Shown: one piece after another, positions 19,865-43,244 of the stretch | Layout of the letters: each line of letters begins with the position of its first letter | How positions within the stretch are numbered: the first letter of the stretch is position 1 | Source of the DNA: Tissierellales bacterium | Lineage (GTDB): Bacteria > Bacillota > Clostridia > Tissierellales > Sedimentibacteraceae | Length of the DNA: 64,000 bases | Assembly: GCA_018433765.1 (NCBI GenBank) | Contig: JAHDQO010000006.1 | Span: forward strand, 62,001-126,000 | Direction of reading: 5' to 3' | Notes under the pieces: generated by a model | What the model was told of the DNA's origin: nothing | Seen by the model: only the letters and a program-made list of their open reading frames with translations | The model's database searches: none | Program-made: the position numbers and the translations under genes

Positions 19865-21043
19865 TTAAACACATTCAATAACAGCTGCTGCACCCATTCC
19901 TCCACCAATACACATACTTACAAGTCCATACTTACCATTTCTGCGTTTTAATTCAGATATAAGTTTTATTGTAAGATAAGTTCCTGTACATCCTAATGGG
20001 TGACCTAATGCTATTGCTCCTCCGTTAACATTTACTATTTCTTTATTTAAGTCTAATTCTTTTATACATTCTATAGATTGAGAAGCAAAAGCTTCATTCA
20101 ATTCTATCAAATCTATATCTTCCTTTGTCTTGCCTGCAAGTTTTAATGCTTTAGGTACTGCCTGAATAGGTCCAAGTCCCATAACATCTGCTGGAACACC
20201 AGCTACAGCAAATGATCTAAAAATAGCTAAAGGTTTTACTCCTAGACTGTCAGCTTTTTGTTTTGACATAACTAATACCATTGCCGCTCCATCACTTGTT
20301 TGAGATGAATTTGCTGCTGTTACAGTACCGTCTTTTTTAAAAGCAGGTCTCAATTTAGATATTTTCTCTATATTACTATTTGGTCTAATTCCTTCATCTT
20401 GGTCAAATATAAAAGTTTCTGTAGTAACCATACCATTTTCGTCTGTAATTTTTCTTTCAGCATGAACTGGTATTATTTCTTCTTTAAATTTTCCTTCTTC
20501 CTGTGCTTTAGCAGCTTTTAACTGACTTTCAAGACCGAAAGCATCTTGTTCTTCTCTTGTTATACCATATCTATCAGCTACATTTTCTGCTGTAATTCCC
20601 ATAGATGTACTTGATTCTGGTTTAGTATCCATCAAATATGGAGTAGGGCTTAATCGTCCTCCACCCATAGGAACTAAACTCATAGATTCAATTCCTCCTG
20701 CTATTATAACCTCTGCATGACCAACCATTATACAATTTGCAGCATGAGCTATTGTTTGAAGTCCTGATGCACAAAATCTATTCACTGTTTGACCTGGAAC
20801 ACAATCAGGTAGCCCAGCTCTTTGTGCAACTACTCTACCTATATTTAATCCCTGCTCTCCTTCTGGCATTGAACATCCTATTATTACATCATCTATTTCT
20901 TTATGATCTAATTGTGGTACTTTTGCCAGCACTGCATTAAGAACTTCAGCGCCGTAATCTTCTGGTCTAGTATATCTTAATTTTCCCTTAGGTGCTTTTC
21001 CTATTGCTGTACGTCCCATTGCTACTATAACCGCTTCTCTCAT
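19865..21043 (-). CDS. Acetyl-CoA C-acyltransferase (thiolase)
   Basis: 392 residues. Thiolytic cleavage of 3-ketoacyl-CoA to acetyl-CoA plus a shortened acyl-CoA, or the reverse condensation. Catalytic residues seen: C91 in NRFCASGLQ, H348 in ALGHPLGCTG and C378 in CIGGGMGAA. Last gene of the crotonase/CoA-transferase/FadN-like operon, 13 bases after the fusion protein gene. FadA-like rather than a pure biosynthetic ThlA, judged by its partner; direction of flux is inferred. Confidence 0.93.
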   Translation of the reverse strand: MREAVIVAMGRTAIGKAPKGKLRYTRPEDYGAEVLNAVLAKVPQLDHKEIDDVIIGCSMPEGEQGLNIGRVVAQRAGLPDCVPGQTVNRFCASGLQTIAHAANCIMVGHAEVIIAGGIESMSLVPMGGGRLSPTPYLMDTKPESSTSMGITAENVADRYGITREEQDAFGLESQLKAAKAQEEGKFKEEIIPVHAERKITDENGMVTTETFIFDQDEGIRPNSNIEKISKLRPAFKKDGTVTAANSSQTSDGAAMVLVMSKQKADSLGVKPLAIFRSFAVAGVPADVMGLGPIQAVPKALKLAGKTKEDIDLIELNEAFASQSIECIKELDLNKEIVNVNGGAIALGHPLGCTGTYLTIKLISELKRRNGKYGLVSMCIGGGMGAAAVIECV

Positions 21044-21056
21044 AATTACACCTCCA

Positions 21057-23417
21057 TTAATTTCTAAGTGGTTTTCCTGTTCTAAGCATATATCCTATTC
21101 TATCCAAAGTTTTATCTTCTCCACAAAGGCTGAGGAATGCTTCTTTTTCTAATTCTAGGATTTGTTCTTCAGTAACGTAAGTGTTTCTTGGAACATTTCC
21201 ACCAGTAATAATAGTTGCAATCTTATTACCTATGTGCGCATCATATTCAGATATATAATTTCCATAAACCATTTGCTGCAGCGCAAATGACAAGAATGCT
21301 TTTCCTGTGGTACCAATAACTTTAATATTTTCTTTCACTAATGGTCTAAATCCAGCTTTATCCATTGATAATACTAAATCTTTAGCTTCATCAATTAAAG
21401 CATCTTTATTCATAACAATTCTATCAGATTTTTTCAAATAGCTCTTGCTTACACCTTCAAATCCACTTGTTGATACTTCTGCCATTGCGATTTTTTTAAA
21501 CATATCAGCTACAAATGGAGCTAAATCTACATCATTAACTTTAGCAGCTTCTGCAGTACCTCTTATTAGAAATTCTTTTACTCCACCACCTGATGGAACT
21601 AGGCCTACACCAACTTCAACTAAGCCCATATAAGTTTCAGCACTAGCAGCTACTTTATGAGCATGCATTGTTATTTCTGCTCCCCCTCCTAAAGTCATAC
21701 CAAAAGGAGCAGCAACTATAGGTTTAGGAAAATATTTTAATTTCATATTTGTATTTTGTAGGTTTGAAATTTGCTTATCTAGGTTTTTCCAGTCTCTGCT
21801 CATTGCTAAACCAACAATAAGAGATAAGTTTGCTCCTGCACAGAAATTCTTACCTTGGTTTCCTATAACTAGGCCTTTATAATTTTTATCAACTTCTTCT
21901 AGTGCCTCTCCAATCATATCACCTATAAAATTAGTTAAGGTATTTCCTTTTGATTTAAATTGAAGACAGGCTACTCCATCACCAATGTCTACTAATGCAG
22001 CATCAGGATTATGCATAATTATGTTATTTTTAGCTGATGATAATAAGATATAAGGTGACGCTGTTCTTTCATCAATATCATCATAGAAATTTTCTTTTCC
22101 TGAAGCAAGCATTTTCTCAACCCACTTAGGTATTACTTCTCCTTCTGATTTCATTTTTTTAACAGATTTTTTAACACCTATAGTATCCCATAATGCAAAT
22201 GGACCTAAATCCCAGTTAAATCCCCACATTACAGCTTTATCCATTTCTTTGAAATCATCAGATATTTCAGGAATTTTTGATGCACTATATAAAAGTGCTT
22301 TTTTCAATAATTCCCAAGCAAATTTTCCTTCTTCTTCTTCTGAATAAATAAGAGTATTTATTCTGTTTTCTAATCCTTTTTGAGCAAATGCCTTATCTAG
22401 AATATCTATTTTAACTGATTCTTTTTCAACATATTCTTCTTTTTTATGATCCCACATGAATATTTGTTTTTTATTATCTGTCTTTACCTTTTTATAGAAC
22501 CCTTGTTTAGTTTTATCTCCTAAATAACCTTTATTTATGAGTTTTTTCACATATTCAGGCATTTCAAACATTTTCTTTTCTTCTTCGTCATCAATATTAT
22601 TGATAACATTATTTACAACATGGTAAAAAACATCAATTCCAACCATATCTATAGTTCTAAAGCTACCACTCTTAGGTCTCCCCATTGCTCTACCTGTAAT
22701 TTTATCTACCTTTGCAACACTATATCCATACTCATCCATTAATTTTAATGTGCATACAGAAGCAAATGTTCCAATTCTATTTCCTATAAAGTTTGGTGTA
22801 TCTTTTGCCATAACTACACCTTTGCCTAATCTTTCAGTTGCAAATACTTTCATAAAATCTAAAACTTCTGGCAGAGTTTCTTTACATGGAATTATTTCAA
22901 ATAATTTCATATAACGAGGTGGATTGAAAAAATGAGTTCCTAAAAAATGCTGTTTAAAATCTAAAGGAAGTCCTTCAGCACATTTATTAATTGATATACC
23001 TGATGTATTAGAACTTACAATACATTCTGGTTTTCGATATTCACTTATTTTTTTGAACAAATCTTTTTTTATATTTAATTTTTCTATTATTACTTCAATA
23101 ATCCAATCTGCTTCTTTTAATACATCTAGATCATCAACTAAATTTCCTACTTCTATCATTTGTCCAAAGCTTTTGTCATAGATTGGACTTGGTTTTGTTT
23201 TTGGACTTAATACTCTCTTTTTACCGTTTTCTGCAAATTTGTTTCTCACTTCTTTGCTATTTAGAGTAAGTCCTTTTTTCTTTTCATCATCAGTTAAGCT
23301 ATTAGGAACAATATCTAATAAACAAACTTGTATTCCTGCACCTGCTATATGAGCTGCGATACTTGCTCCCATAACACCTGCGCCAATAACTACTGCTTTT
23401 TTTACATTATAGCTCAT
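21057..23417 (-). CDS. 3-hydroxyacyl-CoA dehydrogenase / enoyl-CoA hydratase fusion (FadN-like)
   Basis: 786 residues. The dehydrogenase comes first: NAD-binding VIGAGVMGASIAAHIAGAG (about 11-29), SSNTSGISI and HFFNPPRYMKLFEIIP, with C-terminal dehydrogenase units to about 420. A crotonase-fold domain follows from about 480 (LVIGNQGKNFCAGANLSL, PFGMTLGGGAEITMHA), and then a tail. This order matches B. subtilis FadN, the reverse of FadB/FadJ. It hydrates enoyl-CoA and oxidises 3-hydroxyacyl-CoA in the cytoplasm, feeding the thiolase encoded directly downstream. Confidence 0.92.
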   Translation of the reverse strand: MSYNVKKAVVIGAGVMGASIAAHIAGAGIQVCLLDIVPNSLTDDEKKKGLTLNSKEVRNKFAENGKKRVLSPKTKPSPIYDKSFGQMIEVGNLVDDLDVLKEADWIIEVIIEKLNIKKDLFKKISEYRKPECIVSSNTSGISINKCAEGLPLDFKQHFLGTHFFNPPRYMKLFEIIPCKETLPEVLDFMKVFATERLGKGVVMAKDTPNFIGNRIGTFASVCTLKLMDEYGYSVAKVDKITGRAMGRPKSGSFRTIDMVGIDVFYHVVNNVINNIDDEEEKKMFEMPEYVKKLINKGYLGDKTKQGFYKKVKTDNKKQIFMWDHKKEEYVEKESVKIDILDKAFAQKGLENRINTLIYSEEEEGKFAWELLKKALLYSASKIPEISDDFKEMDKAVMWGFNWDLGPFALWDTIGVKKSVKKMKSEGEVIPKWVEKMLASGKENFYDDIDERTASPYILLSSAKNNIIMHNPDAALVDIGDGVACLQFKSKGNTLTNFIGDMIGEALEEVDKNYKGLVIGNQGKNFCAGANLSLIVGLAMSRDWKNLDKQISNLQNTNMKLKYFPKPIVAAPFGMTLGGGAEITMHAHKVAASAETYMGLVEVGVGLVPSGGGVKEFLIRGTAEAAKVNDVDLAPFVADMFKKIAMAEVSTSGFEGVSKSYLKKSDRIVMNKDALIDEAKDLVLSMDKAGFRPLVKENIKVIGTTGKAFLSFALQQMVYGNYISEYDAHIGNKIATIITGGNVPRNTYVTEEQILELEKEAFLSLCGEDKTLDRIGYMLRTGKPLRN

Positions 23418-23441: not shown

Positions 23442-24749
23442 CTATATCAATTTCGCCTCTTTTGCTTGTTGTAATAATTCTTCTCTGAAATCAGGATGTG
23501 CAATATCTATTAATGCTCTTACACGTGTTTCTATACTCTTATTATTTAAATCTGCAATACCATACTCTGTAACAATGTACTGAACATTTGCTCTAGGTAT
23601 TGTAACAGCTGTTCCCGGAAGAAGTGAAACATTGATTCTTGACTTAATTTCTCCTTTTGACTTAACAGTTGAAGATAGGCAAATAAATGATTTACCATTA
23701 TTAGCCATGCTTGCACCTTCAACAAAGTCCAACGCACCACCTGTACAGCTAAACTGTTTATATCCTAATGCTTCTGCACCCACTTGACCAGTTAAATCAA
23801 CCATTAAGGCAGTATTTATTGATATAAAGTTATCATTCTTAGCTACTTCTAATGGATTATTAACTTTAAATATTGGTGCAACATGAATTAAAGGATTTTT
23901 ATTCATAAAATCATATAATTCTTTACTTCCTATACCAAACCCGCATACAAGTTTGTTTGTGTTATGATTCTTTTTAGAACAGTTAATAACACCTTTTTTA
24001 GCTAGATAAACCATTGAATCTGTAAGCATCTCAGTATGTATACCTAAATCTTTCTTTTCTTCTAATCCATAACCTACAGCATTTGCTATTCCTCCAAGAC
24101 CTATCTGTATAGTTGCTCCATCAGGAATATGAGGAAGAATAAGTTCTGCAATCTTCTTATCCACATCTGTAACTTTTGGCTGAGGTAATTCAGGTAGCGG
24201 ATGATCTTTTTCACATATAAAGCTGACATCTTTTACATTTACTGAATTACTTTCACCTAGACAAACTGGCAGACATTTATTAACTTGAACAATAACTAAT
24301 TTAGCATGTTTTAGAACTATTTCATTAAGAGCAGCACCTGTAGGTCCAAAATTCATATTACCTTTCTCGTCTGGTGGTGTAGCTTCTATCAATGCTACAT
24401 TTGGTTTAACAACATTATCTACCATCCAGTTTGCTTTTGAAAAATGCACTGAAGAGATATCTACATTACCAAAACCTATCATTCTTCTTTCTATAGGTCC
24501 CAGAAAGAAGGTATGATAATTTATATGTCCTTTAAATCCTAAATTTAAAAACTCATGTGGATACATTAAAAGTGCTGAATATATATCTACATTTTCAAGT
24601 TCATTAACTCTTTCACATAATGCTGATATTAAATGTATAGGTGCACAGTTGTTAGGACCCATATAAACTTGATCCCCTGAATTTATCTTTTTAGCTGCTT
24701 CCTTAAATGTAATAATTTTTTCAGAATATATTTTTTTATAATCCATCAT
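23442..24749 (-). CDS. Acetyl-CoA hydrolase/CoA-transferase family (4-hydroxybutyrate CoA-transferase-like)
   Basis: 435 residues, the usual length of AbfT/Cat-type CoA-transferases. It moves CoA from acetyl- or another acyl-CoA to a free acid, activating it for the pathway. Seen: GDQVYMGPNNCAPIHL near the N-terminus, catalytic Glu in GIHTEMLTDS (E240), QIGLGGIANAVG (215-225), and the C-terminal YIVTEYGIADL block. Encoded between crotonase and the FadN-like fusion. It is the probable entry (or exit) step for the operon's substrate; which acid is unknown. Confidence 0.88.
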   Translation of the reverse strand: MMDYKKIYSEKIITFKEAAKKINSGDQVYMGPNNCAPIHLISALCERVNELENVDIYSALLMYPHEFLNLGFKGHINYHTFFLGPIERRMIGFGNVDISSVHFSKANWMVDNVVKPNVALIEATPPDEKGNMNFGPTGAALNEIVLKHAKLVIVQVNKCLPVCLGESNSVNVKDVSFICEKDHPLPELPQPKVTDVDKKIAELILPHIPDGATIQIGLGGIANAVGYGLEEKKDLGIHTEMLTDSMVYLAKKGVINCSKKNHNTNKLVCGFGIGSKELYDFMNKNPLIHVAPIFKVNNPLEVAKNDNFISINTALMVDLTGQVGAEALGYKQFSCTGGALDFVEGASMANNGKSFICLSSTVKSKGEIKSRINVSLLPGTAVTIPRANVQYIVTEYGIADLNNKSIETRVRALIDIAHPDFREELLQQAKEAKLI

Positions 24750-24767: not shown

Positions 24768-25559
24768 TTATCTTCCTTGGAATTCTGGTTTTCTTTTTTG
24801 AACAAAAGCAGTTATTCCTTCTTTAAAATCTAAAGTCATTGCAGATTGGATTTGATATTGTGATACAGCTGTAAGATGTTCTTCAAGCTCTTTAAAAGTA
24901 ATTTTATTAATTAAGTCTTTCATTTTTACATATGATGCAGTAGGTCCTGTCGCAAGTTTCTTAGCAAATTGAATAGTTTCTTCTTCTAAATCTTTATCAG
25001 GTACTACTTTGTTTACTAATCCAAGTTTAAATGCCTCTTCAGCTAATACTTCTCTACCAGTCATACATAATTCCGTAGCTCTTGCATATCCAATTAATTT
25101 AGATAGAAAATAAATTCCTCCCATATCAGGAACCAAACCTACTTGTACAAAAGATTGAATAAACTTAGAGTTAGCTGCAGCTATACGGAAATCACAGGCT
25201 AAAGCTAAATTAAATCCTGCACCTGCTGCTGCACCATGAACTGAAGCTATAACAGGTTTATCTATGCTTCTAATTTTTGATGTTACTTCTCCTGATTCGT
25301 CCATAGATGTTCTGAATTTTACCAATTCACCTTTTTCTAGACCTTTAACCATTTCAACTATATCTCCGCCTGAACAGAAAGCCTTTCCTTCACCGGAAAT
25401 AACAATTACTCTAATATTCCAATTAGAAGCACATGCATCAAGAACAGAATTTAGTTCAGATATCATAGTGGTGTTCATAGCATTATAGTTTTTAGGTCCA
25501 TTTAAAACAATGTTTGCAATGCCTTCACAGATTGATAGTTTAATTTTTGAGTATTCCAT
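24768..25559 (-). CDS. Enoyl-CoA hydratase/isomerase (crotonase family)
   Basis: 263 residues, single crotonase domain. Oxyanion-hole segments GKAFCSGGDIVEM (about 60-72) and VHGAAAGAGFNLALACDFR (about 105-123), and VGLVPDMGGIYFLSKLIG (about 142-159), where the catalytic Glu of classical hydratases is replaced by Asp. It may therefore be an isomerase or a hydratase for an unusual acyl-CoA. First gene of the operon behind the sigma-54 promoter at 25.6 kb; AAGGAG precedes its ATG. Confidence 0.9.
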   Translation of the reverse strand: MEYSKIKLSICEGIANIVLNGPKNYNAMNTTMISELNSVLDACASNWNIRVIVISGEGKAFCSGGDIVEMVKGLEKGELVKFRTSMDESGEVTSKIRSIDKPVIASVHGAAAGAGFNLALACDFRIAAANSKFIQSFVQVGLVPDMGGIYFLSKLIGYARATELCMTGREVLAEEAFKLGLVNKVVPDKDLEEETIQFAKKLATGPTASYVKMKDLINKITFKELEEHLTAVSQYQIQSAMTLDFKEGITAFVQKRKPEFQGR

Positions 25560-25600: not shown

Positions 25601-25620
25601 TATAGCATTTTTTATGCCAA
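25601..25620 (-). promoter_or_regulatory. Sigma-54 (-24/-12) promoter of the crotonase-thiolase operon
   Basis: Minus strand TTGGCATAAAAAATGCTA: invariant GG and GC separated by exactly 10 bases, as sigma-54 requires. It lies 42 bases upstream of the crotonase ATG. A matching promoter lies at 31141-31158. Confidence 0.88.
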
Positions 25621-25690: not shown

Positions 25691-25736
25691 TTGTGCAAAT
25701 TAACTGCATGTGAATAAACTTGCACATGTGCAAAAA
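25691..25736 (-). promoter_or_regulatory. Upstream activator site, copy A (46-bp block with TTGCACATGTGCAA palindrome)
   Basis: 43 of 46 bases are identical to 31365-31410. It includes a perfect 14-base palindrome (25720-25733) and a TTGTGCAAAT half-site. It lies about 70-130 bases upstream of the sigma-54 promoter, the normal position for an NtrC-family enhancer, and is presumably bound by the regulator encoded at 31.4-32.8 kb. Confidence 0.82.
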
Positions 25737-25746
25737 CCGTAAATTT

Positions 25747-25781
25747 AAAAAACTGCAATTAAATTTTCAAATTTAATGCAG
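25747..25781 (-). terminator. Terminator of the dehydratase operon
   Basis: Stem CTGCAATTAAATTT / AAATTTAATGCAG with a T-run on the minus-strand exit side (TTTTTTAAATTT). It separates the CooC-like gene from the enhancer and promoter of the next operon. Confidence 0.75.
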
Positions 25782-25837
25782 CCTTTTTTAATTAAGTACA
25801 ACTCATAATTCTTATTGTTATAGAATATATCTGACAA

Positions 25838-26599
25838 TCATATGTTAAAATTAGAAAGAGCTTTTCTTACAGATTTAACCATTTCACCTTCTGGCAATTC
25901 CAAAATGCTTCTACCTTCAATGTCAAAGTCTCTAAGCTCATCATTGTCAATTATATAACCCATTAATCGAATGTCATCTGGTAAATTAATTTTGTTTATC
26001 TCTTCTTTTGCTCTCAATCTATTCAGTATAAGACCTACCTCATCATATTCCATCATCTTTTGTGCTACCTTATTTATTGTATTAATTACATTGATTCCTT
26101 TAGCTGAAGCATCAGATACTAAAACTAAATGCGAAACTTTTTCCATAACTCTTCTATTTACTTGTTCTATACCTGCTTCTCCATCTATAATAACATAGTC
26201 AAAATTAGAAGCTAATGAACCAATAATATCTTTTAATAAACTATTTACTTTACAAAAGCATCCATCATCTTCTGGACGTCCAATTGCTAAAAATGCTAAA
26301 TTATCTTTTTCAACTAATGCATCAAATATCTCATATTCTAAATTTGAAATTATTGTTTGTTTATCTTGTTTTTCTTTTGTTTTAGATTTTTCTATTATTT
26401 CCTTTCTTACATCATCAACGGTCTTTTTCACTTCAATACCCAATGCTGTAGAAAGTCCAATAGCTGGATCAGCATCTATTGCTAATATTGTGGCTTCCTT
26501 ATGTTCTATTAAAATTTTAGTTATTACTGCTGATACTGAAGTTTTACCAACTCCACCTTTACCACAAACTGCAAAAATAATAGTTTTTTCATTTACCAT
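25838..26599 (-). CDS. CooC-type nickel-insertion ATPase (MinD/SIMIBI family)
   Basis: 253 residues. Deviant Walker A KGGVGKT (14-20), IDADPAIGLSTALG switch region, and DDGCFCKVN carrying a CxC pair at C114/C116, the position of the CooC1 dimer-interface cysteines that bind nickel. CooC proteins load Ni into CO dehydrogenase, and AcsF does so for acetyl-CoA synthase. No CO dehydrogenase gene is in the window; the partner here is the ACS-like protein encoded 14 bases upstream. Its role in this dehydratase operon is inferred: maturation or insertion of a metal centre. Confidence 0.85.
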   Translation of the reverse strand: MVNEKTIIFAVCGKGGVGKTSVSAVITKILIEHKEATILAIDADPAIGLSTALGIEVKKTVDDVRKEIIEKSKTKEKQDKQTIISNLEYEIFDALVEKDNLAFLAIGRPEDDGCFCKVNSLLKDIIGSLASNFDYVIIDGEAGIEQVNRRVMEKVSHLVLVSDASAKGINVINTINKVAQKMMEYDEVGLILNRLRAKEEINKINLPDDIRLMGYIIDNDELRDFDIEGRSILELPEGEMVKSVRKALSNFNI

Positions 26600-26613
26600 T
26601 TCATTTCCTCCAT

Positions 26614-27330
26614 TTATTTATGCAATTTTTTTCTTAACTTTCTTAATTCATTCATTTCATTACATACATCTTGGTAATCACAGACTTCACAATCATACTC
26701 TAAATTTTCAAACATCTTATTCATAGCTTGTATTGATTTTGTTACTTTTTCTCCAATAGGTTTTAAATTTTTCAACTCTTCTTCTCCAGAAGTAATAAAA
26801 ATAACTTCTACCCCATCTACATATTCTAGCTCTTTATATTTTTTAATTATTTCATTACCTAGTATTTCAAAGGAAAAACCCTTGTTTACTGCTTCTTTAC
26901 TAATTCGACTCCATTCTCTCATTCTTTGAGGTACAGCTCTAATCATATAGCCTTTTAGATTGAGCTTACGCTTTAATATATCCATTTCCAAATATCTATC
27001 AAAGAAATTTTCTTCATTAAATTCGTGACCGCATATCAATATAATTTCTCCAAAAGAGCACTTTCCTTTTTTTATCTTTTTTATGTCTTTACCTATTAGT
27101 GTGATTTTTCCATCGCTTATTCTTTCTTTATCATCTGTCCAAGCTAAAAAATATAATGACTCTTTTGACGGATGTCCTAGTTCTATAGCTGTATCGCTTC
27201 CCATTATTATATTGGTTTTTTTATCTTTTTCCCAATTATAACTATCATTATAATTAAAGAAATTAACTTTATTAGATTTAGTAGGTATAAAATCTCTTAA
27301 TTGGTCTAAGATATTTTCAAACAATTCCAT
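26614..27330 (-). CDS. Stand-alone acetyl-CoA synthase (CdhC/AcsB)-like domain protein with CxxCx5C tail
   Basis: 238 residues. The centre resembles the non-catalytic part of the acetyl-CoA synthase beta subunit: IIMGSDTAIELG (41-52), DGKITLIGKDI (73-83), and REWSRISKEAVNKGFSFEILG (138-158), comparable to the ACS segment with 'W.RISK.AVEKGF'. It lacks the A-cluster domain. A short helical C-terminus carries C214, C217 and C223 (CxxCx5C), a plausible metal or Fe-S site. It is encoded between the dehydratase activator and the CooC-type ATPase, suggesting a scaffold or redox partner. ACS homology is from memory of the family, not a search. Confidence 0.68.
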   Translation of the reverse strand: MELFENILDQLRDFIPTKSNKVNFFNYNDSYNWEKDKKTNIIMGSDTAIELGHPSKESLYFLAWTDDKERISDGKITLIGKDIKKIKKGKCSFGEIILICGHEFNEENFFDRYLEMDILKRKLNLKGYMIRAVPQRMREWSRISKEAVNKGFSFEILGNEIIKKYKELEYVDGVEVIFITSGEEELKNLKPIGEKVTKSIQAMNKMFENLEYDCEVCDYQDVCNEMNELRKLRKKLHK

Positions 27331-27366: not shown

Positions 27367-27546
27367 TTATTTATTTCTTAATTTTGACTTTTCTACTTTT
27401 CTTCTATATTTGGGTTCAAACCAGCGTATAAATTTTTGATCTAGTCTCAAATTACAAACAATATATCCAATTACATCAAGAATAACTAATATTATAATTA
27501 TTATTTTTAAGGCTTTCATTATTAAATCCCATTGCTTAAAAACAAT
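27367..27546 (-). CDS. Small single-pass membrane peptide in the dehydratase operon
   Basis: From ATG 27519 it encodes 50 residues: one hydrophobic helix (ALKIIIIILVILDVIGYIV) then a basic tail ending RKVEKSKLRNK. A very strong GGGAGGTG (27552-27559) lies 7 bases before an in-frame ATT at 27546, which would give 60 residues (adding VFKQWDLI before the ATG). No ribosome binding site precedes the ATG itself, so initiation at ATT is likely or else regulated. The frame begins 16 bases after the activator stop and ends 36 bases before the ACS-like gene. Function unknown; perhaps anchors a complex. Confidence 0.6.
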   Translation of the reverse strand: MVFKQWDLIMKALKIIIIILVILDVIGYIVCNLRLDQKFIRWFEPKYRRKVEKSKLRNK

Positions 27547-27562
27547 GGATTCACCTCCCTTT

Positions 27563-28372
27563 CTATTTTTGTGAACATTTAACTAAGTTTTTCCGATATG
27601 CAAAAACTGCTGCTCCTAATGCTCCCATCAATTGTGGGTCTACATCAAGTCTTACAATTTTAACTTTTAAACATTTCTCTAATGCAAGTATTAAACCTTC
27701 ATTTCTAGCACATCCACCTGTTACAGTTACTTCTTCTTCTAACCCTACTCTTTTTATCATAACAAAACATCGTTTAGCTACAGACATTTGTATACCAGCA
27801 GCTATATCAGCAGCAGGTTTTTTTTGTGCTAAGAGACTAATAACTTCGGTTTCTGCAAAAACGCTGCATTGGGATGTTATAGGTACAACTTTCTTTGCTT
27901 GAAGAGACAAATCTGAAAACTCCTGTAAGGTCATCTCAAAACAACTTGCCATTATCTCAAAGAAACGGCCTGTTCCTGCTGCACATTTGTCATTCATTCC
28001 AAAATCTATAACTGAACCATCTTCACCAACATTAATACCTTTTACATCCTGTCCTCCAATGTCTATTATAGTTCTTATGTTTGGGTTAACTGTATGAACA
28101 CCCATGGCGTGACAGCTAATTTCCGAAATATTTTCATTCGCTAGCTCTACTTGCGTTCTACCATATCCTGTCCCTACTATGTATGCAAAATCTTTAGGGT
28201 CATCTATTCCATCAGCATTTTTTACAGCTTCTAAAAGAACCAATCTAGCTGATTCGCATGGATCCATTTTGCTTCTTATAGTTGCATTTGAAACAATCTT
28301 TTCTTCATCATCTAATATTACACATTTAGTATAAGTTGATCCTACATCACATCCACAAAAAAACTTTTTCAT
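27563..28372 (-). CDS. 2-hydroxyacyl-CoA dehydratase activator (HgdC/BadF family ATPase)
   Basis: 269 residues, the size of HgdC-type homodimeric 'archerase' proteins. ASKHA-fold ATPase: DVGSTYTKCVI (9-19), DIGGQDVKGI (104-113), VTGGCARNEG near 220. The cysteines that bridge one [4Fe-4S] cluster between subunits are C130 (DKCAAGTGRF) and C169 (ITSQCSVF). It couples ATP hydrolysis to a one-electron shot into the dehydratase or reductase. Only one activator gene is present, unlike the two (BcrA/BcrD) of class I benzoyl-CoA reductase. Confidence 0.93.
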   Translation of the reverse strand: MKKFFCGCDVGSTYTKCVILDDEEKIVSNATIRSKMDPCESARLVLLEAVKNADGIDDPKDFAYIVGTGYGRTQVELANENISEISCHAMGVHTVNPNIRTIIDIGGQDVKGINVGEDGSVIDFGMNDKCAAGTGRFFEIMASCFEMTLQEFSDLSLQAKKVVPITSQCSVFAETEVISLLAQKKPAADIAAGIQMSVAKRCFVMIKRVGLEEEVTVTGGCARNEGLILALEKCLKVKIVRLDVDPQLMGALGAAVFAYRKNLVKCSQK

Positions 28373-31140: not shown

Positions 31141-31158
31141 AAGCATTTTTCATGCCAA
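31141..31158 (-). promoter_or_regulatory. Sigma-54 (-24/-12) promoter of the dehydratase operon
   Basis: Minus strand TTGGCATGAAAAATGCTT: GG and GC with 10 bases between them. It lies 64 bases upstream of the small-subunit start. Nearly the same 18-mer as the promoter at 25601-25620. Confidence 0.88.
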
Positions 31159-31364: not shown

Positions 31365-31410
31365 TTGTGCAAATAAACTGCATGTGAACAAATTTGCACA
31401 TGTGCAAAAA
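31365..31410 (-). promoter_or_regulatory. Upstream activator site, copy B (46-bp block with TTGCACATGTGCAA palindrome)
   Basis: Matches 25691-25736 at 43 of 46 positions with no gaps; the palindrome is at 31394-31407. It lies about 210-270 bases upstream of the -24/-12 promoter and only 11 bases past the stop of the response-regulator gene. Confidence 0.82.
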
Positions 31411-31420
31411 TGGTTTTAGT

Positions 31421-32773
31421 TTAGAGTCCATATTTTTTTAGTTTATATTGTAAAGTTCTTCTTGATATGCAAAGATCGTCGGCAGATTTTTTCCGATGTC
31501 CATTATTTTTTTCCAATACATTTTTTATTGTTATAATTTCCTGCATTTCTAAAGGAGTAAATCTTTCACTTGTTGTAACTGCTTCTTCTCTTTTATCTAA
31601 CAATTTACTGCTTTGTTTTTTTATTTTAGATGGTAAATCACTAATGTTTAAAACACTGCTTTCTGATAGTGCAATAGCACTTTCTATAGTGTTTTCTAGC
31701 TCTCTTACATTACCAGGCCATTCATATGATGAAAGTAATTCCATTACATCTTCTGATATGCTTGTTACACTTTTATTAAATTCTTTGTTATATTTTTTAA
31801 CAAAAAAGTCTGTTAAATTACTTAAATCTTTTTTTCTATATTTTAAAGGAGGACATTCTATATTAATTACATTTAACCTATAATACAAATCTTCTCTGAA
31901 TTCTTTATTTTTTACAGCATATTCAAGATTCTTATTCGTAGCAGCAATGACTCTTGCTTCTATAGGTATATTTTTGCTGCTACCCACTCTTTGTATTTCT
32001 CTATCTTGCAGTACTGTTAATAGTTTAGCTTGAAGATTTAAAGGTAAAGTACCTATCTCATCCAAAAATATAGTACCATCTTTCGCTAACTCAAATTTAC
32101 CTTTTTGAGTTTCATATGCTCCAGTAAATGAACCTTTTTTATGACCAAAAAGTTCGCTTTCAATTAAATTTTCAGGTAAAACCGCACAGTTAACATTAAT
32201 AAATGGAAGTTTTCTACGATTACTGCTGTAGTGAATTAATCTAGCTAGAACACCTTTTCCAGTACCACTCTCTCCAGTTATAAGAACAGTTGTATTTAAA
32301 TTTCTTATTTTTCTAACTTTGTTTCTTATATGTTGCATATCTTTGCTGCTTCCTATAAATGTAGAATTATTATTTGAAATTTCCTTATTTATAAGCTTTC
32401 TACTATCTTTAATTTTAAATACTTCTTCTATTTTATTTGTCAATTCACTGTTTTCAAAAGGTTTAGTTAAATAATCGTAAGCTCCTATTCTCATAGCTTC
32501 AACAGCATTATTAATACTTCCATAAGCAGTCATCATAATTACAAATGTATCAGGAGTTATTTCCTTTATCTTCTTTAACACTGTAATACCATTCATTTTA
32601 GGAAGATTAACATCCAAAACTACCAAATCATATTTTTCATTTGAGATTTTTGTAAAAGCATCTTCTCCATCGCTAGACAAATCAACTGTACATCCCATTT
32701 CTTCTAATTCAGCAGCAATAATTTTTAAAATTACTTTTTCATCATCTACTACTAAGACTTTTTTACAATTCAT
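31421..32773 (-). CDS. Sigma-54-dependent response regulator (NtrC family)
   Basis: 450 residues. Receiver domain (1-120) with phospho-acceptor D54 in VVLDVNLPKMNG; AAA+ activator domain (about 138-365) with Walker A GESGTGKG (167-174), the sigma-54 contact loop as GSFTGA (214-219, a known variant of GAFTGA), and Walker B in GTIFLDEIGTLPL; Fis-type helix-turn-helix at the C-terminus (HRKKSADDLCISRRTLQYKL). It should bind the two 46-bp upstream sites and open the two sigma-54 promoters. Lies three bases after the kinase gene. Confidence 0.94.
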   Translation of the reverse strand: MNCKKVLVVDDEKVILKIIAAELEEMGCTVDLSSDGEDAFTKISNEKYDLVVLDVNLPKMNGITVLKKIKEITPDTFVIMMTAYGSINNAVEAMRIGAYDYLTKPFENSELTNKIEEVFKIKDSRKLINKEISNNNSTFIGSSKDMQHIRNKVRKIRNLNTTVLITGESGTGKGVLARLIHYSSNRRKLPFINVNCAVLPENLIESELFGHKKGSFTGAYETQKGKFELAKDGTIFLDEIGTLPLNLQAKLLTVLQDREIQRVGSSKNIPIEARVIAATNKNLEYAVKNKEFREDLYYRLNVINIECPPLKYRKKDLSNLTDFFVKKYNKEFNKSVTSISEDVMELLSSYEWPGNVRELENTIESAIALSESSVLNISDLPSKIKKQSSKLLDKREEAVTTSERFTPLEMQEIITIKNVLEKNNGHRKKSADDLCISRRTLQYKLKKYGL

Positions 32774-32776
32774 TAA

Positions 32777-34252
32777 TTAAATCATCTCCTTATATTGAAA
32801 AATTATCTTAAATTTGGTTCCCCAATTTTTATTTGAACTAACAAATATCTCGCCTCCATTTTTTTTAACTATTTTTTTTGTTATTGAAAGTCCTAAGCCT
32901 GTACCATCTTTTTTAGTAGTAAAATATGGATCAAATATCTCTTTAATATTATCTTTAGGTATACCACTTCCATTATCCGATATTTCTACAATAACTTCCT
33001 CTTTATCTTCTATATAATTTGTACTTATTGTTATAGATCCCTCATTCTCTATTGCTTGTACAGAATTAATGAAAATATTGATAAATGCTTGCTGCAACCT
33101 AACTACATTACCTTTTATGCGTGGTAAATTTTTTGATAACTTTTTCTCAACATTAATGTATTTATTGCCTTTATAAAAGAAAATTAGGTCGGAGGATTTT
33201 TCTAATACCTCATTTAAATCTATTAAAGTTAATGTATCTTCTTTATTCATACGTGAATAAGAAAGATATCTCTCAATAGTTTCATTTGCACGGTCTACTT
33301 CTGTTACTATAGATTCAATAAACTTATATTGTTTTGAATTTTTATCAATCCCTTTTTGGAGAATTCTTGCACATCCTCTTATTCCCATAAGAGGATTTCT
33401 TATCTCATGTGCAATATCTGCTGAAACATTTCCTAAAAGAGCTGTCTTTTTTACCTGTTCTAGTTCTTTTTCAAGTATTCTTGTTTTTGTTAAATCTGTA
33501 AAAACAATTACAACTCCATATACATAGTTTTGTCCATCTATTAAAGGAGATATAGTTACATCTAAAATGAGTTTTTCATGTGTTTTATTTTCATAAGTAA
33601 TATCTTTATAAGTTTTTCTTTTGTTGTTAAATATTACATAGTTTATATCTTTAATTAATACTCTTCTTTGACTTTCGTTCACATAATCATAAAAACTTTT
33701 ACCTATAATTTCTTCTCGTACTCCTAACTCATTATATATTCTTTTATTTACTTTTATAATTTCGCCTTGTAAATTTATACTTATAAAGGCTAAATCAGTA
33801 CTATCAAATATATTTTGCAAGCAATTTCTTTCCTTTACAATTTCATTGTTTAATATAACATTTTCATAACTTACTTTTTTAAGTAAATTAAATGCAATCA
33901 AATCATTTTCATTATATTTTTCATTTAAGCTACAGCTTATTAAAACTGTTTTACTTGAATCATATTCACAAACTACACCTAAAATCAAATTGTAATTTAC
34001 ACCATTTTCTTCAACGCTCAAAATGGTACCTTTTTCAAAACTAATTATGTCTATTTCTTTAGATGATAATAAATTGAGAATTTTCAAATCATCAATGTTT
34101 TTATAGTCATTTACATTATTTGCTAGTATTCTTCCTTCTTCAGTTACTGTTATTAAACCTAACCAATCTGAATGTAAAATTTTATCTAGCCCAATTTTCT
34201 GCAATTTATTTAGAGTATTTTTTACATCATAAGTAAGATTAAAATGATACAT
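32777..34252 (-). CDS. PAS-domain sensor histidine kinase
   Basis: About 491 residues from ATG 34252 (GGGAGTGA just upstream; a GTG five codons earlier overlaps that site). No membrane segment is evident, so it is probably a cytoplasmic sensor. An N-terminal domain of about 125 residues of unknown type is followed by a PAS domain (about 135-250), HisKA with SADIAHEIRNPLMGIRG (phospho-His) and a HATPase_c domain with DNGSGIPKDN and GTGLGLSITKKIV. Co-transcribed with the sigma-54 regulator; the likely signal is a pathway metabolite or redox state. Confidence 0.9.
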   Translation of the reverse strand: MYHFNLTYDVKNTLNKLQKIGLDKILHSDWLGLITVTEEGRILANNVNDYKNIDDLKILNLLSSKEIDIISFEKGTILSVEENGVNYNLILGVVCEYDSSKTVLISCSLNEKYNENDLIAFNLLKKVSYENVILNNEIVKERNCLQNIFDSTDLAFISINLQGEIIKVNKRIYNELGVREEIIGKSFYDYVNESQRRVLIKDINYVIFNNKRKTYKDITYENKTHEKLILDVTISPLIDGQNYVYGVVIVFTDLTKTRILEKELEQVKKTALLGNVSADIAHEIRNPLMGIRGCARILQKGIDKNSKQYKFIESIVTEVDRANETIERYLSYSRMNKEDTLTLIDLNEVLEKSSDLIFFYKGNKYINVEKKLSKNLPRIKGNVVRLQQAFINIFINSVQAIENEGSITISTNYIEDKEEVIVEISDNGSGIPKDNIKEIFDPYFTTKKDGTGLGLSITKKIVKKNGGEIFVSSNKNWGTKFKIIFQYKEMI

Positions 34253-34267
34253 AAATATCACTCCCAC

Positions 34268-38331: not shown

Positions 38332-38365
38332 CACTAACAAATTTTTTATTATATACAGTTTAGTG
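38332..38365 (-). promoter_or_regulatory. Candidate promoter and BlaI-type operator
   Basis: CACTAA (38332-38337) and TTAGTG (38360-38365) flank a minus-strand TATAAT (38353-38348), upstream of the repressor start. The right arm overlaps the stop codon of the DUF3160 gene. Operator assignment is by position and symmetry only. Confidence 0.4.
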
Positions 38366-40789
38366 TTTCCAATCAATTTCAACATCTCTATTTATTTTAA
38401 CATTGTTTTCTTCATCTGAAATAAAACTTTTCGTCCACTCTGGCATATCGGGTAAAGTATCTAAAGGTTCTTCTAAAGTAACATTATAAAAATCATAATC
38501 TTCAAAATCTTCATTTCTTTCTCTTTTTAATCCTAACATTTCATGCCACTTCTCATCTGTTAATCTTTCTCCAAACATAAATTCATAATAGCTGTAAACT
38601 GCACCTTTTGCAATGTAAGGTACACCATTAAAATTACATAAAACATATATTTCACATGGAAATCCTGTTCCTAATTCAAGATATCCTCCACCAAAAACAG
38701 TTGCTACATCTGATACCAAAGCTGTTGTATATGATTTTTCACAATCAATACCTGCATCTTGCATCATATATTCTAAACTTACAGTTATACTATCAATCAA
38801 TCCACCATAATATCCCAATTTATCATATTCTTCTTCAGTAAGTAACTCATTATTTAATTCTTTTATTGAGCACGTAATTAAAATTTCTTCCATTTCTATC
38901 ATATCATCTAATATTTCTGCTATTTTTCCATTTAACAGCCCTTTTACTCTTAAGTTTTCTTTTGTGCTTTTTGCCTGCCACAAAAGTTTTGAATATACAT
39001 CAACATTTGGTTCAACATAATGATATGGAGCTAGTGGTGGTTCATATCCCCCCATTTCTGCACAAGGCTGTTTTGAATAAAGCACTGTATCATGTTTCAA
39101 TTCTGCATAACTTCCTAACATTGAATTTATGTTTTTATCTGTCCACATTTGAGACCTCATGAATTGAGGCATTCCTTCTGTATTTTCAAATGAAACACCA
39201 GTTGATTTTAATGTACACAGCCACCCGCTGTATAGATTTGATTTCCATGCATCTTCACTGGTATTAATAATTTGATCTTTTAACTTATTTAGTTCTGTTT
39301 CATATTCACACCATAATTCTTTAGGTTTATAATATTGATCAAGAATTTTTTCTGCTCTTTCATTTCCAAAAGCAGCAGCAACATCAAGTCCAGATGGTAC
39401 AGGTCTTTTAAATGGCTTCATCAAATTCTGCATAATATCACCATCCATAGTATACCTCTGCCCCATCATTCTGAACTGCCTATTTGAAGGCATATTATAA
39501 GATACTGCTTTATTAACTATTTGCGGTTCAGATAATTTTTTAGCTTCTTCAAGAAGTTTACTATAGTAAGTTTCATCCTTATATATTAGTATATCAGGAT
39601 TTTTTCCATACACATTTGTTATCATTTCTCTATAATCTAAAACATTTAAATCGTCAGAATTTCCTGCATAAAGTGCTGTAATATAATAAACATCTTCCCA
39701 GCTCTTTAAATCACTTTGTTCTTCTATATCTTCAAGTATTAAGCTAGACATTATTAGTGCCTTAACAGTGCTGTCAACCTTCAAAACTTCTTCATCTTTT
39801 TTAACCTCCGTCAAAGGAAATGCGGTATTGCCATACCACATCATTGCTCTAAAATAACTCTCCAGCTTTTCATTACCTGTATAATGACCTCGAACAGTAT
39901 ATTGAGTATAATCTAAATCATATTGTAGTAATGGTGATTTAATTAATTGTTTCGCTTCGTTAATTAAAGCCAACTCTTTGTCCGCTAAACTTTGTACTTC
40001 ATTAGGCACGATAGTTTCTTGACCTAATAGAGTATTTGATACTGCAAAATAAACTGTTATAGTTTCTAATTCTTCTTTTAATCCATTATATTTTTCATCA
40101 TTATAATATCTTAAGCTTTTGCTGAGCATATTTTTTGTGAACTTGCAAAGTTCATCATATAAACTATTAGCTTCTATATACTTTAAACTGTCATTAAAGA
40201 AAAGATGATACATATTTAATGCCGAATCAACGGTAATAAACATAGGTATATAATCATACTCTGAACTTTCATATAAATGATGCATCTTAATATCTGGATA
40301 TTTGCCCGGTTTTAATACAACAAAACCATTTTCATATAGACTTTTCTTTTGATTCTCTGTAAAACCTTCAAACTGTGCTAAATTATAAACATTTGATAAA
40401 TCAGGCTCAACTGTATACTCTGACACATTCGGTGTATATTCAGGTACTTCATATTTAACTACTGCTCTTAAGTCTTCACTGTTAATATCCCATGAATTAA
40501 TGTAATTTATATTTTCTAGATCTTCTTCATCTAGATTAGTTTCTTGCTCAGCCTCTAGTAATTCATGCTGGTTTTCAATATTTGGTTCATTTTGATCTTC
40601 AATCTCTTTATCTTCTTTAAATTCATTATTATTTTCATTCTTGGTATTTGACTGTTCCAATTCATTTTGTGGTTGTACTACTTCTTTTACTCTATAGGTA
40701 TCTTGATTTTGACATGAAGTATAAATAAATATCTGAACAACCAGTAAAACTAATATTAATTTTTTACATTTGCTTTTTCTATTATTCAT
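38360..40789 (-). CDS. DUF3160 domain lipoprotein, copy 1
   Basis: 809 residues. Lipobox YTSC near residue 26, an acidic Glu/Asn-rich linker to about 95, then one very long DUF3160 domain (about 110-790) with YNLAQFEGFTENQKKSLYEN, FMGQRYTMDG-like RMMGQRYTMDG, and FGERLTDEKWHEMLG near the end. Extracytoplasmic and membrane-anchored; the family has no known activity. It follows a paralogue in the same orientation, 91 bases downstream of that copy, and shares an almost identical 3' end with it. Confidence 0.8.
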   Translation of the reverse strand: MNNRKSKCKKLILVLLVVQIFIYTSCQNQDTYRVKEVVQPQNELEQSNTKNENNNEFKEDKEIEDQNEPNIENQHELLEAEQETNLDEEDLENINYINSWDINSEDLRAVVKYEVPEYTPNVSEYTVEPDLSNVYNLAQFEGFTENQKKSLYENGFVVLKPGKYPDIKMHHLYESSEYDYIPMFITVDSALNMYHLFFNDSLKYIEANSLYDELCKFTKNMLSKSLRYYNDEKYNGLKEELETITVYFAVSNTLLGQETIVPNEVQSLADKELALINEAKQLIKSPLLQYDLDYTQYTVRGHYTGNEKLESYFRAMMWYGNTAFPLTEVKKDEEVLKVDSTVKALIMSSLILEDIEEQSDLKSWEDVYYITALYAGNSDDLNVLDYREMITNVYGKNPDILIYKDETYYSKLLEEAKKLSEPQIVNKAVSYNMPSNRQFRMMGQRYTMDGDIMQNLMKPFKRPVPSGLDVAAAFGNERAEKILDQYYKPKELWCEYETELNKLKDQIINTSEDAWKSNLYSGWLCTLKSTGVSFENTEGMPQFMRSQMWTDKNINSMLGSYAELKHDTVLYSKQPCAEMGGYEPPLAPYHYVEPNVDVYSKLLWQAKSTKENLRVKGLLNGKIAEILDDMIEMEEILITCSIKELNNELLTEEEYDKLGYYGGLIDSITVSLEYMMQDAGIDCEKSYTTALVSDVATVFGGGYLELGTGFPCEIYVLCNFNGVPYIAKGAVYSYYEFMFGERLTDEKWHEMLGLKRERNEDFEDYDFYNVTLEEPLDTLPDMPEWTKSFISDEENNVKINRDVEIDWKH

Positions 40790-40880
40790 ACTTTAATCTC
40801 CTTAAATTATTGTAGTTCTATATATTATACTTATAAAATTTTCTCACTCATTAAATCTTTGTATATTGAAATTTTTATTT

Positions 40881-43244
40881 TTAGTATTTCCAATCAATTT
40901 CAACATCTCTATTTATTTTAACATTGTTTTCTTCATCTGAAATAAAACTTTTCGTCCACTCTGGCATATCGGGTAAAGTATCAAGTGGTTCTTCTAAAGT
41001 AACATTATAAAAATCATAATCTTCAAAATCTTCATTTCTTTCTCTTTTCAATCCTAACATTTCATGCCATTTTTCATCTGTTAATCTTTCCTCAGACTCA
41101 AATTCATAGTAACTGTAAACTGCACCTTGTGCTATGTAAGGCACACCCTTACAATTACATATTACATATATTTCACATGGAAATCCTGTTCCTAATTCAA
41201 GACAACCACCCGGCATTAAGGCTGGGAAAAAAGTTGCTACATCAGATATTAAAGCTGTTGTATAAGATGCATTGCTATAAACCCCTATATCTTGCAGTCT
41301 ATATATCATATTAGTATTAATCCTATCAATTAACCCTCCAAAACACGCTAGTTTATCATATTCATCTTCAGTAAGCATTTCATTGTTTAATTCTTTTACC
41401 GAACAAGTTATTAAGAGCTCTTCCATTTCTATCATATCATCTAATATTTGTTTTATTTCTTCATTTAACAATCCTTTTATTTTTAAATTTTCTTTTGTGT
41501 TTTTTGCCTGCCATAACAGTTTTGAATACACCTCAACATTTGGTTCAACATAATGATATGGTTGTGGTGGTGTTTCTCCTCCACCCTTTTCTGCACAAGG
41601 CTGTTTAGAATAAAGTACTGTATCATGTTTTAATTCTGCATAACTTCCTAACATTGAATTAATGTTTTTATCAGTCCACTTTTGTGATTTCATAAACTGG
41701 GGCATTCCTTCTGAGTCTTCAAAAGATACAGCAGTCGATTTCAATGTCCAAAGCCATCCGCTGTATAGATTTGATTTCCAAGTATCATCGTTAGTATTAT
41801 TGATTTGATCTTTAAGCTTATGTAGTTCTGTTTCATATCCATCCCAAAACAACTTGGGTTTATAATATTGGTCAAGAATTTCCTCTGCTCTTTCACTTCC
41901 AAATACAGCAGCAACATCTAATCCTGAAGGTACCGCTCTTTTTAATGGTTCTACCAAGTTCTGCATAATATCTCCATCTATAGTATATCTCTGCCCCATC
42001 AGTCTAAACTGCTTACCCGTTGGTATATTATAAAATATTGTTTTTGTTTGTATTTGAGGATTAGTTAATTTTTTAGCCTCCTCAAGAAGTTTACTATAGT
42101 AAGTTTCATCCTTATATATTAGTATATCAGGATTCTTACCATATACATTTTTAATCATTTCTCTATAATCTAATACATTTAAATCGTCAGAATTTCCTGC
42201 ATAAAGTGCTGTAATATAATAAACATCTTCCCATCTTTCTAAATCACTTTTATTTCCTTCATCTTCAAGTATTAAGCTAGACATAATTAATGCTTTAACA
42301 GTACTGTCAACTGACAAAACTTCTTCTTTATTTTCTATTTTAGTTAATGGAAATGCTGTATTACCATACCACATCATAGTTTTAAAATAGTTTTCCAACT
42401 TTTCATTACATGTATAATGTCCTCTTACTATGTATTGAGAATAATCTAAATCATATTTAAATAAAGGTGATTTAGTTAACCCCTGAGCTTCATTAATTAA
42501 TAATAATTCCTCGTCTGCTAAACTTTGTACTTCATCAGGTACATTAGTTTTTTCTCCTAACAAAGTGTTTGCTACTGTAAAATATGAAGTTATAGTTTTT
42601 AATTCTTCTTTTAATTCACTATATTTATCATCATTGTAATATTTTAAACTTTTACTGAGCATATTTTTTGTAAAGTTATTAAGTTCATCACAAAGACTAT
42701 CAGCTTCCACATATTTTAAGCTATCATCAAAAAAAAGATGATACATATGTAATGCCGTATCCACTGTAATAAACATAGGTATATGATTATATTCTAAGCT
42801 TTCATATAAATGGTGCATTTTTACATATTTATCTTCGCCGGGTTTTAATACAACAAAACCATTTTCATATAAACTTTTCTTTTGATTATCTGTAAACCCT
42901 TCAAACTGTGCTAAATTATAAACATTAGATAAATCAGGCTCTACTGTATAATCTAACACATTCGGTGTATATTCGGGTACTTTATATTTAACTTTTGCTC
43001 TTAAATCTTCACTTTTTATATTCCACGAATTATTGTAGTTTATATCGTCTTGATTTTCATCATTTGATTTATTCTGCTCACTTTTATTATCTTTATTTTC
43101 TTGTAATTCACTGTTCTCTTTTTGCTGTTTTCCTACTTCTTTTACTTGATTGTTATCTTGTTTCTGGCATGAAGTAAAAGCAAATATTTGAACTAACAGC
43201 AAAACTATTATTAATATTTTGCATGTTCCTTTTCTATTATACAT
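40881..43244 (-). CDS. DUF3160 domain lipoprotein, copy 2
   Basis: 787 residues. Paralogue of the next gene with the same plan: lipobox FTSC, a shorter charged linker (to about 70), then the DUF3160 domain. Most of the domain is similar but clearly diverged, while the last 35 residues (EMLGLKRERNEDFEDYDFYN onward) are identical and the coding DNA there is nearly identical. A segment GGCLELGTGFPCEIYVICN is shared with copy 1. Upstream gene of the tandem pair; function unknown. Confidence 0.8.
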   Translation of the reverse strand: MYNRKGTCKILIIVLLLVQIFAFTSCQKQDNNQVKEVGKQQKENSELQENKDNKSEQNKSNDENQDDINYNNSWNIKSEDLRAKVKYKVPEYTPNVLDYTVEPDLSNVYNLAQFEGFTDNQKKSLYENGFVVLKPGEDKYVKMHHLYESLEYNHIPMFITVDTALHMYHLFFDDSLKYVEADSLCDELNNFTKNMLSKSLKYYNDDKYSELKEELKTITSYFTVANTLLGEKTNVPDEVQSLADEELLLINEAQGLTKSPLFKYDLDYSQYIVRGHYTCNEKLENYFKTMMWYGNTAFPLTKIENKEEVLSVDSTVKALIMSSLILEDEGNKSDLERWEDVYYITALYAGNSDDLNVLDYREMIKNVYGKNPDILIYKDETYYSKLLEEAKKLTNPQIQTKTIFYNIPTGKQFRLMGQRYTIDGDIMQNLVEPLKRAVPSGLDVAAVFGSERAEEILDQYYKPKLFWDGYETELHKLKDQINNTNDDTWKSNLYSGWLWTLKSTAVSFEDSEGMPQFMKSQKWTDKNINSMLGSYAELKHDTVLYSKQPCAEKGGGETPPQPYHYVEPNVEVYSKLLWQAKNTKENLKIKGLLNEEIKQILDDMIEMEELLITCSVKELNNEMLTEDEYDKLACFGGLIDRINTNMIYRLQDIGVYSNASYTTALISDVATFFPALMPGGCLELGTGFPCEIYVICNCKGVPYIAQGAVYSYYEFESEERLTDEKWHEMLGLKRERNEDFEDYDFYNVTLEEPLDTLPDMPEWTKSFISDEENNVKINRDVEIDWKY

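Follow-up and report, generated by a model that had tools for sequence, protein, structure and literature searches.

Why should an operon for a 2-hydroxyacyl-CoA dehydratase-like enzyme carry a CooC-family ATPase together with a short relative of acetyl-CoA synthase (ACS)? The general view of ATP-dependent dehydratases and benzoyl-CoA reductases is that catalytic subunits and an ASKHA activator are all they require. The two additional genes, of which the ACS-like one is called A2 here, lie in a 64,000-nt stretch of DNA from a Tissierellales bacterium (Sedimentibacteraceae; GCA_018433765.1, contig JAHDQO010000006.1, positions 62,001–126,000 of the forward strand), the whole of which is referred to as the window. 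Their presence may point to a further step, driven by ATP, in the maturation, metal supply or electron supply of the dehydratase cluster.

Gene layout and the dehydratase subunits

The preliminary description of the locus placed CooC and a 238-residue ACS-like protein within 25838–27330; in agreement with this, CooC lies at 25838–26599 (253 aa) and the ACS-like ORF at 26614–27330 (238 aa), both on the minus strand (Table 1).

Table 1. Genes and sequence elements around the dehydratase genes (window coordinates)
Feature	Position	Strand	Evidence
PAS sensor histidine kinase	32777..34267	-	
NtrC-type response regulator: receiver, sigma-54 activator, Fis-type HTH	31421..32773	-	
43-nt element with palindrome TTGCACATGTGCAA, putative upstream activating site	31365..31407	-	Repeat comparison; palindrome kept in L075
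Sigma-54-like site TGGCATGAAAAATGCT, upstream of hgdB	31142..31157	-	Two mismatches against the consensus
HgdB-type subunit (HGD-D), 393 aa	29896..31077	-	Six double-cubane cysteines C39, C77, C104, C270, C300, C334
HgdA-type subunit (HGD-D), 497 aa	28400..29893	-	Best PDB profile match BzdO; C164, C192, C426, E133
ASKHA activator, HgdC type	27563..28372	-	TIGR00241 acyl-CoA dehydratase activase, over cut-off
Small 50-aa ORF, one hydrophobic N-terminal stretch (by eye)	27367..27519	-	Pfam: no match; 52-aa homologue in the same place in L075
A2, stand-alone ACS middle-domain homologue, 238 aa, A-cluster cysteine loop C214xxC217x5C223	26614..27330	-	HMM, profile, AF2 model
CooC-family ATPase, 253 aa, Walker A GKGGVGKT, C114-x-C116	25838..26599	-	PDB sequence search, alignments, tree
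A+T-rich hairpin and U run directly after cooC, terminator-like	25742..25800	-	z -3.83
43-nt element, copy 2, with palindrome, upstream of enoyl-CoA hydratase gene	25691..25733	-	
Sigma-54-like site, copy 2, TGGCATAAAAAATGCT	25604..25619	-	
Enoyl-CoA hydratase/isomerase family, putative unit 2	24768..25559	-	
CoA-transferase	23442..24749	-	Best profile butyryl-CoA:acetate type, below its cut-off
3-hydroxyacyl-CoA dehydrogenase/crotonase fusion	21057..23417	-	
Acetyl-CoA C-acyltransferase (thiolase)	19865..21043	-	

When up to one mismatch is allowed, the 4.19 Mb genome contains two sites for the 14-nt palindrome TTGCACATGTGCAA, one upstream of hgdB and the other upstream of the enoyl-CoA hydratase gene; the reversed pattern, which served as a control, has one site. 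The palindrome sits within a 43-nt repeat, and each copy is followed by a near-identical sigma-54-like site; a scan with the general sigma-54 consensus is unspecific and gives 13 two-mismatch sites in the window, the TGGCATGAAAAATGCT and TGGCATAAAAAATGCT sites among them. The neighbouring regulator is a sigma-54 activator accompanied by a PAS histidine kinase. In a related Clostridium MAG (L075), whose A2 is 78% identical, the palindrome is kept, the sigma-54-like site TGGCACGAAAAATGCT fits the promoter consensus more closely, and hgdC and A2 are likewise separated by a small ORF (52 aa). The hairpin after cooC, which is unlisted by a terminator scan that requires three G-C pairs, suggests that hgdB to cooC form one unit, and A2 and CooC are probably transcribed together with hgdBAC. 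CooC thus appears to end the first unit, as had been described, whereas the extent of the operon needs qualification in that the genes from enoyl-CoA hydratase to thiolase would be served by a separate copy of the promoter region. Elsewhere in the window (38360–43244), two adjoining large ORFs of 809 and 787 aa, closely alike and resembling lipoproteins by eye, are apparently a tandem duplication.

The operon had been described as one for a 2-hydroxyacyl-CoA dehydratase; it encodes an HGD-D pair accompanied by HgdC, but the six cysteines of the beta subunit indicate a double-cubane type rather than the classical HgdABC. These cysteines are invariant in 28/28 window-type sequences (window included) and align with those of BzdN and DCCP, whereas two of the six are missing from HadC, in which window C39 and C270 are Pro and Ala, and, in the same comparison, from MbdN of 3-methylbenzoyl-CoA reductase; the set is therefore not universal among class I reductases. 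In HgdA, C164, C192, C426 and E133 are invariant in 23 aligned sequences, and E133 aligns (counted by hand) with residue 55 of HadB, which we take to be catalytic. The position of BzdO His131 corresponds to Gly195 in HgdA (C192+3; conserved in over 90% of the 23), an equivalence placed by spacing, the HMMER alignment being gapped there. The accessible part of the work on BzdNO (PMC11971306) describes an [8Fe-9S] cluster on six cysteines in BzdN, a [4Fe-4S] cluster with water on three in BzdO, the active-site residue His131 in BzdO, and formation of the clusters in E. coli with no A2- or CooC-type genes among those it names as supplied. The window enzyme resembles BzdNO class I benzoyl-CoA reductase and DCCP in having the same six [8Fe-9S] ligand cysteines in HgdB, and BzdO in having three in HgdA; it differs from BzdNO in Gly195 for His131 (by spacing), in the single HgdC of the window, and in the extra A2 and CooC. 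By its sequence, the window HgdAB is assigned to the double-cubane type of dehydratase/reductase.

The ACS-like protein A2 and its CooC partner

A2 matches Pfam PF03598 (CdhC) over residues 42–183 (E = 4.5e-18) and four NCBIfam ACS/CdhC models from residue 41–42 to 217–218, all far below their cut-offs (NF040764: E = 9.7e-19 but 67 of 800 bits, far below the equivalog cut-off). Searched against the PDB, the A2 sequence retrieves 15 distinct sequences below 1e-6, all ACS or the archaeal beta subunit of ACS, and a profile from 60 A2 relatives retrieves ACS-type chains only (15 sequences within E = 0.01, the best of them at 1.7e-16); 58 of these 60 relatives match CdhC individually, which marks them as homologues of the ACS middle domain. 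The AF2 model (pLDDT 88.1, pTM 0.86, with less certain tail blocks at pLDDT 67–77) gives 23 Foldseek matches below 0.001, all of them ACS. In VIA-align, it reaches Z 18.6 to both 1oao_C (rmsd 4.2 Å over 184 residues) and 3git_A (2.1 Å over 172), with Z 3.4 for the first non-ACS row of a list in which the absence of other families excludes nothing. As the HMM, profile, Foldseek and VIA-align matches all point to ACS, A2 is identified, from sequence and predicted structure, as the ACS middle (CoA-binding) domain in the form of a separate protein; the likeness to ACS noticed at the outset is thereby confirmed at both levels.

Alignments with relatives and 33 ACS indicate that A2 keeps the ACS-shared residues E50, G52, W140 and R142. 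Invariant in 60/60 relatives, and also in the 7 sequences of set A3, are E50, L51, G52, R131, R142 and three tail cysteines. Arg131 stands in place of a Trp that is present in 28/33 ACS and is, by our own count, presumably Trp418, and the CoA site of A2 may therefore be altered. Cys-Gly-Cys is the distal-Ni motif of ACS; A2, which stops 15 residues past C223, has no CGC. It thus resembles ACS (AcsB/CdhC) in the predicted middle-domain fold, in the four shared residues and in three cysteines that align with those of the A-cluster loop, and differs from it in the absence of the N-terminal domain and the C-terminal Ni-site domain as well as in its place in a dehydratase operon. An interaction of CoA with the ACS middle domain has been observed for C. 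autoethanogenum, according to the accessible part of that study (PMC12289521).

The CxxCx5C tail of A2 had been regarded as an addition to the ACS-like part, a view that we revise: by hmmsearch, hhalign and MAFFT, C214, C217 and C223 align instead with A-cluster cysteines. In hmmsearch of the A2 family against PDB ACS, the alignment to Moorella ACS reaches position 509 of 1oao_C, ending at the second Cys (the tail alignment being printed for 3git and 3i04). Cys506 and Cys509 of 1oao_C are, we assume, A-cluster cysteines. By hhalign, C214/C217 pair with the C-x-x-C of 33 Bacillota ACS, and in a MAFFT merge, which is the sole basis for the pairing of C223, all three fall in columns that are Cys in 33/33 ACS. 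The tail cysteines thus align with the A-cluster loop that opens the ACS C-terminal domain, although the loop is three residues shorter in A2 (CxxCx5C against CxxCx8C). No fourth conserved Cys is present in A2 of the window's group, in which three cysteines align by sequence with the ACS A-cluster set; a distant sub-group of nine loci (L135–L141, L143, L144) has one additional upstream tail cysteine, which is in keeping with a cluster site. The same three alignments to ACS speak against the tail being a zinc or Fe-S finger of unrelated origin, and we reject that reading. An 82-aa ORF of another genome of the same order (G117; L008:1468-1716) is like the cysteine tail of A2 alone, and is perhaps a remnant of A2.

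The CooC ORF finds CooC1 (3kje) as its best PDB match (E = 1.4e-15), followed by McdA and MinD chains at 2.2e-7 or weaker; NifH/BchL relatives of the same P-loop family are weak matches. The CxC motif is kept in 64/64 aligned sequences (window and some near-duplicates included), and Walker A is invariant except at one position in 20. The proposed CooC-type ATPase with C114/C116 is in agreement with these results. By search scores, a grouping with generic MinD proteins without a metal motif seems less likely, since CooC1 scores above MinD-type chains and the CxC is kept; the tree (44 rows) had no MinD outgroup. In that tree, a branch with support 91/90, which is less than the star level of the tool, sets the A2-linked CooCs apart from CooCs beside CODH/ACS-like genes and also from those between acsV-like and acsD-like genes in L182 and L183 (ORFs judged by eye), with long branches flagged on the CODH side. 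No CooC-like genes were found within short ACS loci; they were located further off. CooC relatives are metal-insertion ATPases, and the window CooC is like CooC/AcsF in Walker A, CxC and its best PDB match; it differs in its own tree group and in the lack of a known Ni client in the genome.

The family relationship with NifH and BchL, the invariant CxC and the three conserved cysteines of A2 would also suit a CooC that acts in the manner of NifH or HgdC, with a cluster held between two CxC motifs and ATP-driven electrons passed via the Fe-S centre of A2 to the double-cubane subunit. We consider such electron delivery improbable, as HgdC activators are encoded in the same operon and are sufficient in known systems, and as CooC1 from C. 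hydrogenoformans is a Ni- or Zn-binding protein and not the carrier of a redox cluster.

The genome to which the window belongs was found to contain no full ACS. For CODH, no match exceeds the family cut-off, although two weaker ones exist, the better at 8.4e-8. There is a single A2 and a single CooC. The earlier remark that no CO dehydrogenase or full ACS lies nearby thus extends, for CODH at the family cut-off, to the entire genome, which differs in this respect from those with a CODH/ACS complex. With no ACS and no CODH above the cut-off, we reject a role of CooC as maturase of either enzyme in the Tissierellales host, and we count the same absence in favour of A2 as the CooC client.

Distribution and linkage of the A2–CooC pair

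A scan of one genome per species (84,980 species) gave 70 A2 loci, all from entries titled MAG, in which some loci are near-copies or stem from one and the same genome, and some contigs may be misbinned. They belong mostly to Desulfobacterota/Deltaproteobacteria, and also to Spirochaetota, Bacillota, Actinomycetota, Myxococcota, Lokiarchaeota (Asgard) and others. CooC is present in 62/70, within 300 nt of A2 in 60 of those 62, and HGD-D in 60/70; of the ten loci without HGD-D, eight have their start less than 3 kb from a contig end, and one of these eight, L125, has 2.9 kb upstream without an HgdC match. The association of A2, CooC and the dehydratase thus recurs in other genomes of several phyla, and the A2–CooC pair is not due to chance because it recurs in 62 of 70 related, partly non-independent loci. 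Pairwise distances of A2 and CooC are correlated (r = 0.92, n = 57; r = 0.85, n = 50 without the distant group), values that are inflated by shared ancestry. Homology, motif conservation, conserved linkage and common upstream elements make a two-gene A2–CooC module linked to the double-cubane dehydratase/reductase well supported at the sequence level, whereas its mechanism is one that we infer.

The usual gene order is X, HgdB, HgdA, HgdC, HgdC', A2 and CooC, often followed by a second HgdB-HgdA-HgdC set, which is the one most like the window's. In L071 (7332-16406), for example, A2-CooC stands between two successive sets, the first of which has two activators, as BcrABCD has. Gene X (400–540 aa, helical; L128:2811-4094 and relatives, 39 loci) immediately precedes HgdB in many operons of Desulfobacterota and in several of Bacillota, with acyl-CoA dehydrogenases or a GMC oxidoreductase near; the copy tested has no Pfam family, one copy gives a sub-cut-off match, and its AF2 model (pLDDT 74, almost all helical) gave nothing below 0.001 in Foldseek. 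A 434-aa ferredoxin-domain protein (L095:16732-18036) lies between HgdA2 and a third HgdC, as in several other loci. In L142 (4215-6020), an A2-like match falls inside a 601-aa open frame whose end is HGD-D-like by eye, perhaps an A2/HGD-D fusion.

Among the eight loci without CooC, L075 alone lacks room for it (contig end). L092, L093, L110, L135 and L136 have HGD-D with no CooC match, L110 with an HgdB match directly after A2; L138 has A2-CooC and no HGD-D within 10 kb. In L089 (10001-10723) and L102 (235-957), A2 has neither CooC nor HGD-D nearby and stands directly before recC/recB-like genes (recCBD-like; by eye). Copies of this last kind, beside unrelated genes, would be natural if A2-CooC were a sensor of CoA or acyl-CoA, or a passenger without catalytic role. 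Such a role is very unlikely in view of the linkage across several phyla, the invariant cysteines of both proteins, and the transcription unit that they probably share with hgdBAC.

In the order of the Tissierellales genome, stand-alone A2 was found only in that genome among 249 searched (the second match, G117, being the tail alone), and in a phylum sample it was found in 2/398 genomes, its own included; in the order of genome G407 it occurs in 6/71. Stand-alone A2 is rare in Bacillota. A survey with the HgdA profile found window-type HgdA (785.8 bits) in one of the 71 genomes of the G407 order, G681, which has A2; the next score, 131.6 bits, comes from a genome without stand-alone A2, and the other five A2 genomes give at most 97.6 bits or nothing. 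In the 398 phylum genomes, the own genome (666.8 bits) is followed by G330 (235.8) and G531 (142.3), both without stand-alone A2.

The linkage of A2, CooC and HGD-D in the 70 loci, the six double-cubane cysteines of HgdB and the kinship of CooC with metal-insertion ATPases could each be explained if A2, as a scaffold, and CooC, as the ATPase, were maturation factors only, which insert or repair the HgdAB clusters, be it the HgdB double cubane or the site-differentiated [4Fe-4S] in HgdA, and then leave. Three observations make this rather unlikely. BzdNO obtains both clusters when made in E. coli, as given in the accessible part of PMC11971306; the own genome also has an HgdB-HgdC fusion with all six cysteines and no A2/CooC neighbours; and G330 and G531 have related HgdBAC operons without A2/CooC on the visible DNA, although the contig ends soon after hgdC in both. 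The first two also weaken double-cubane assembly as the sole need for A2 and CooC.

A proposed role for A2 and CooC

The explanation that we prefer, at somewhat less than an even chance, is that A2 is a mini-ACS which binds CoA, carries an Fe-S centre, possibly with Ni, that CooC loads, and works for the HgdAB dehydratase/reductase. The ACS-type middle domain of the mini-ACS would bind a CoA thioester or CoA moiety, and C214, C217 and C223 would hold a [4Fe-4S] cluster whose open site may carry a further metal, for instance Ni. CooC would load this centre using ATP, by analogy with the action of AcsF on ACS, which AcsF reportedly loads. Once loaded, the mini-ACS would join HgdAB as its third subunit and handle substrate or electrons, beside the ASKHA activator HgdC. 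The acid would first be CoA-activated by CoA transfer, and the HgdAB product would pass through enoyl-CoA hydration, 3-hydroxyacyl-CoA oxidation and thiolysis; as the unit-2 genes begin at the enoyl-CoA level, a 2-hydroxy acid would be the simplest substrate. In its favour we count the ACS homology of A2, its aligned tail cysteines and ACS-shared residues, the CoA interaction of the ACS middle domain, the kept CxC of CooC, the linkage and correlated distances, the lack of an ACS or over-cut-off CODH client in the genome, and the paired upstream elements with their counterpart in L075. Against this explanation we count the missing Ni-site domain, the shorter loop, the less certain modelled tail and the Arg131 change of A2, the exceptional loci (L089, L102, L138, L092, L093, L110, L135, L136), and the BzdNO clusters made in E. 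coli.

A bolder version, which we hold to be quite improbable, makes the mini-ACS the seat of a new metal centre, in which a CooC-loaded [4Fe-4S] cluster capped by Ni or another metal would lie beside the CoA-binding domain and act with the double-cubane enzyme on a CoA thioester; if true, ACS chemistry would be re-used outside the Wood-Ljungdahl pathway. More generally, an ACS-derived protein with its own CooC, conserved in many anaerobes, suggests that this enzyme class has a third functional component, which may be a new metal site. Outside CO2 fixation, too, the ACS middle domain and the A-cluster loop occur, and Pfam CdhC or CooC matches by themselves are no proof of a Wood-Ljungdahl pathway. 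No description of an A2-CooC-dehydratase module was found in the literature by title or abstract start, in a coverage that leaves out most subscription journals; the module is a clear, small gene set amenable to testing.

With HadIBC, the window operon shares the HGD-D pair, an HgdC-type activator and the alignment of E133 with HadB residue 55, whereas HadC lacks two of the six cysteines. The own genome also has an HadIBC-like operon without the two extra cysteines and without A2/CooC. It lies on contig C13 (L191:4227-13367), where the HadI-HadB-HadC-like genes are followed by AMP-binding-, acyl-CoA dehydrogenase-, EtfBA- and CoA-transferase-like ORFs (the latter by eye).
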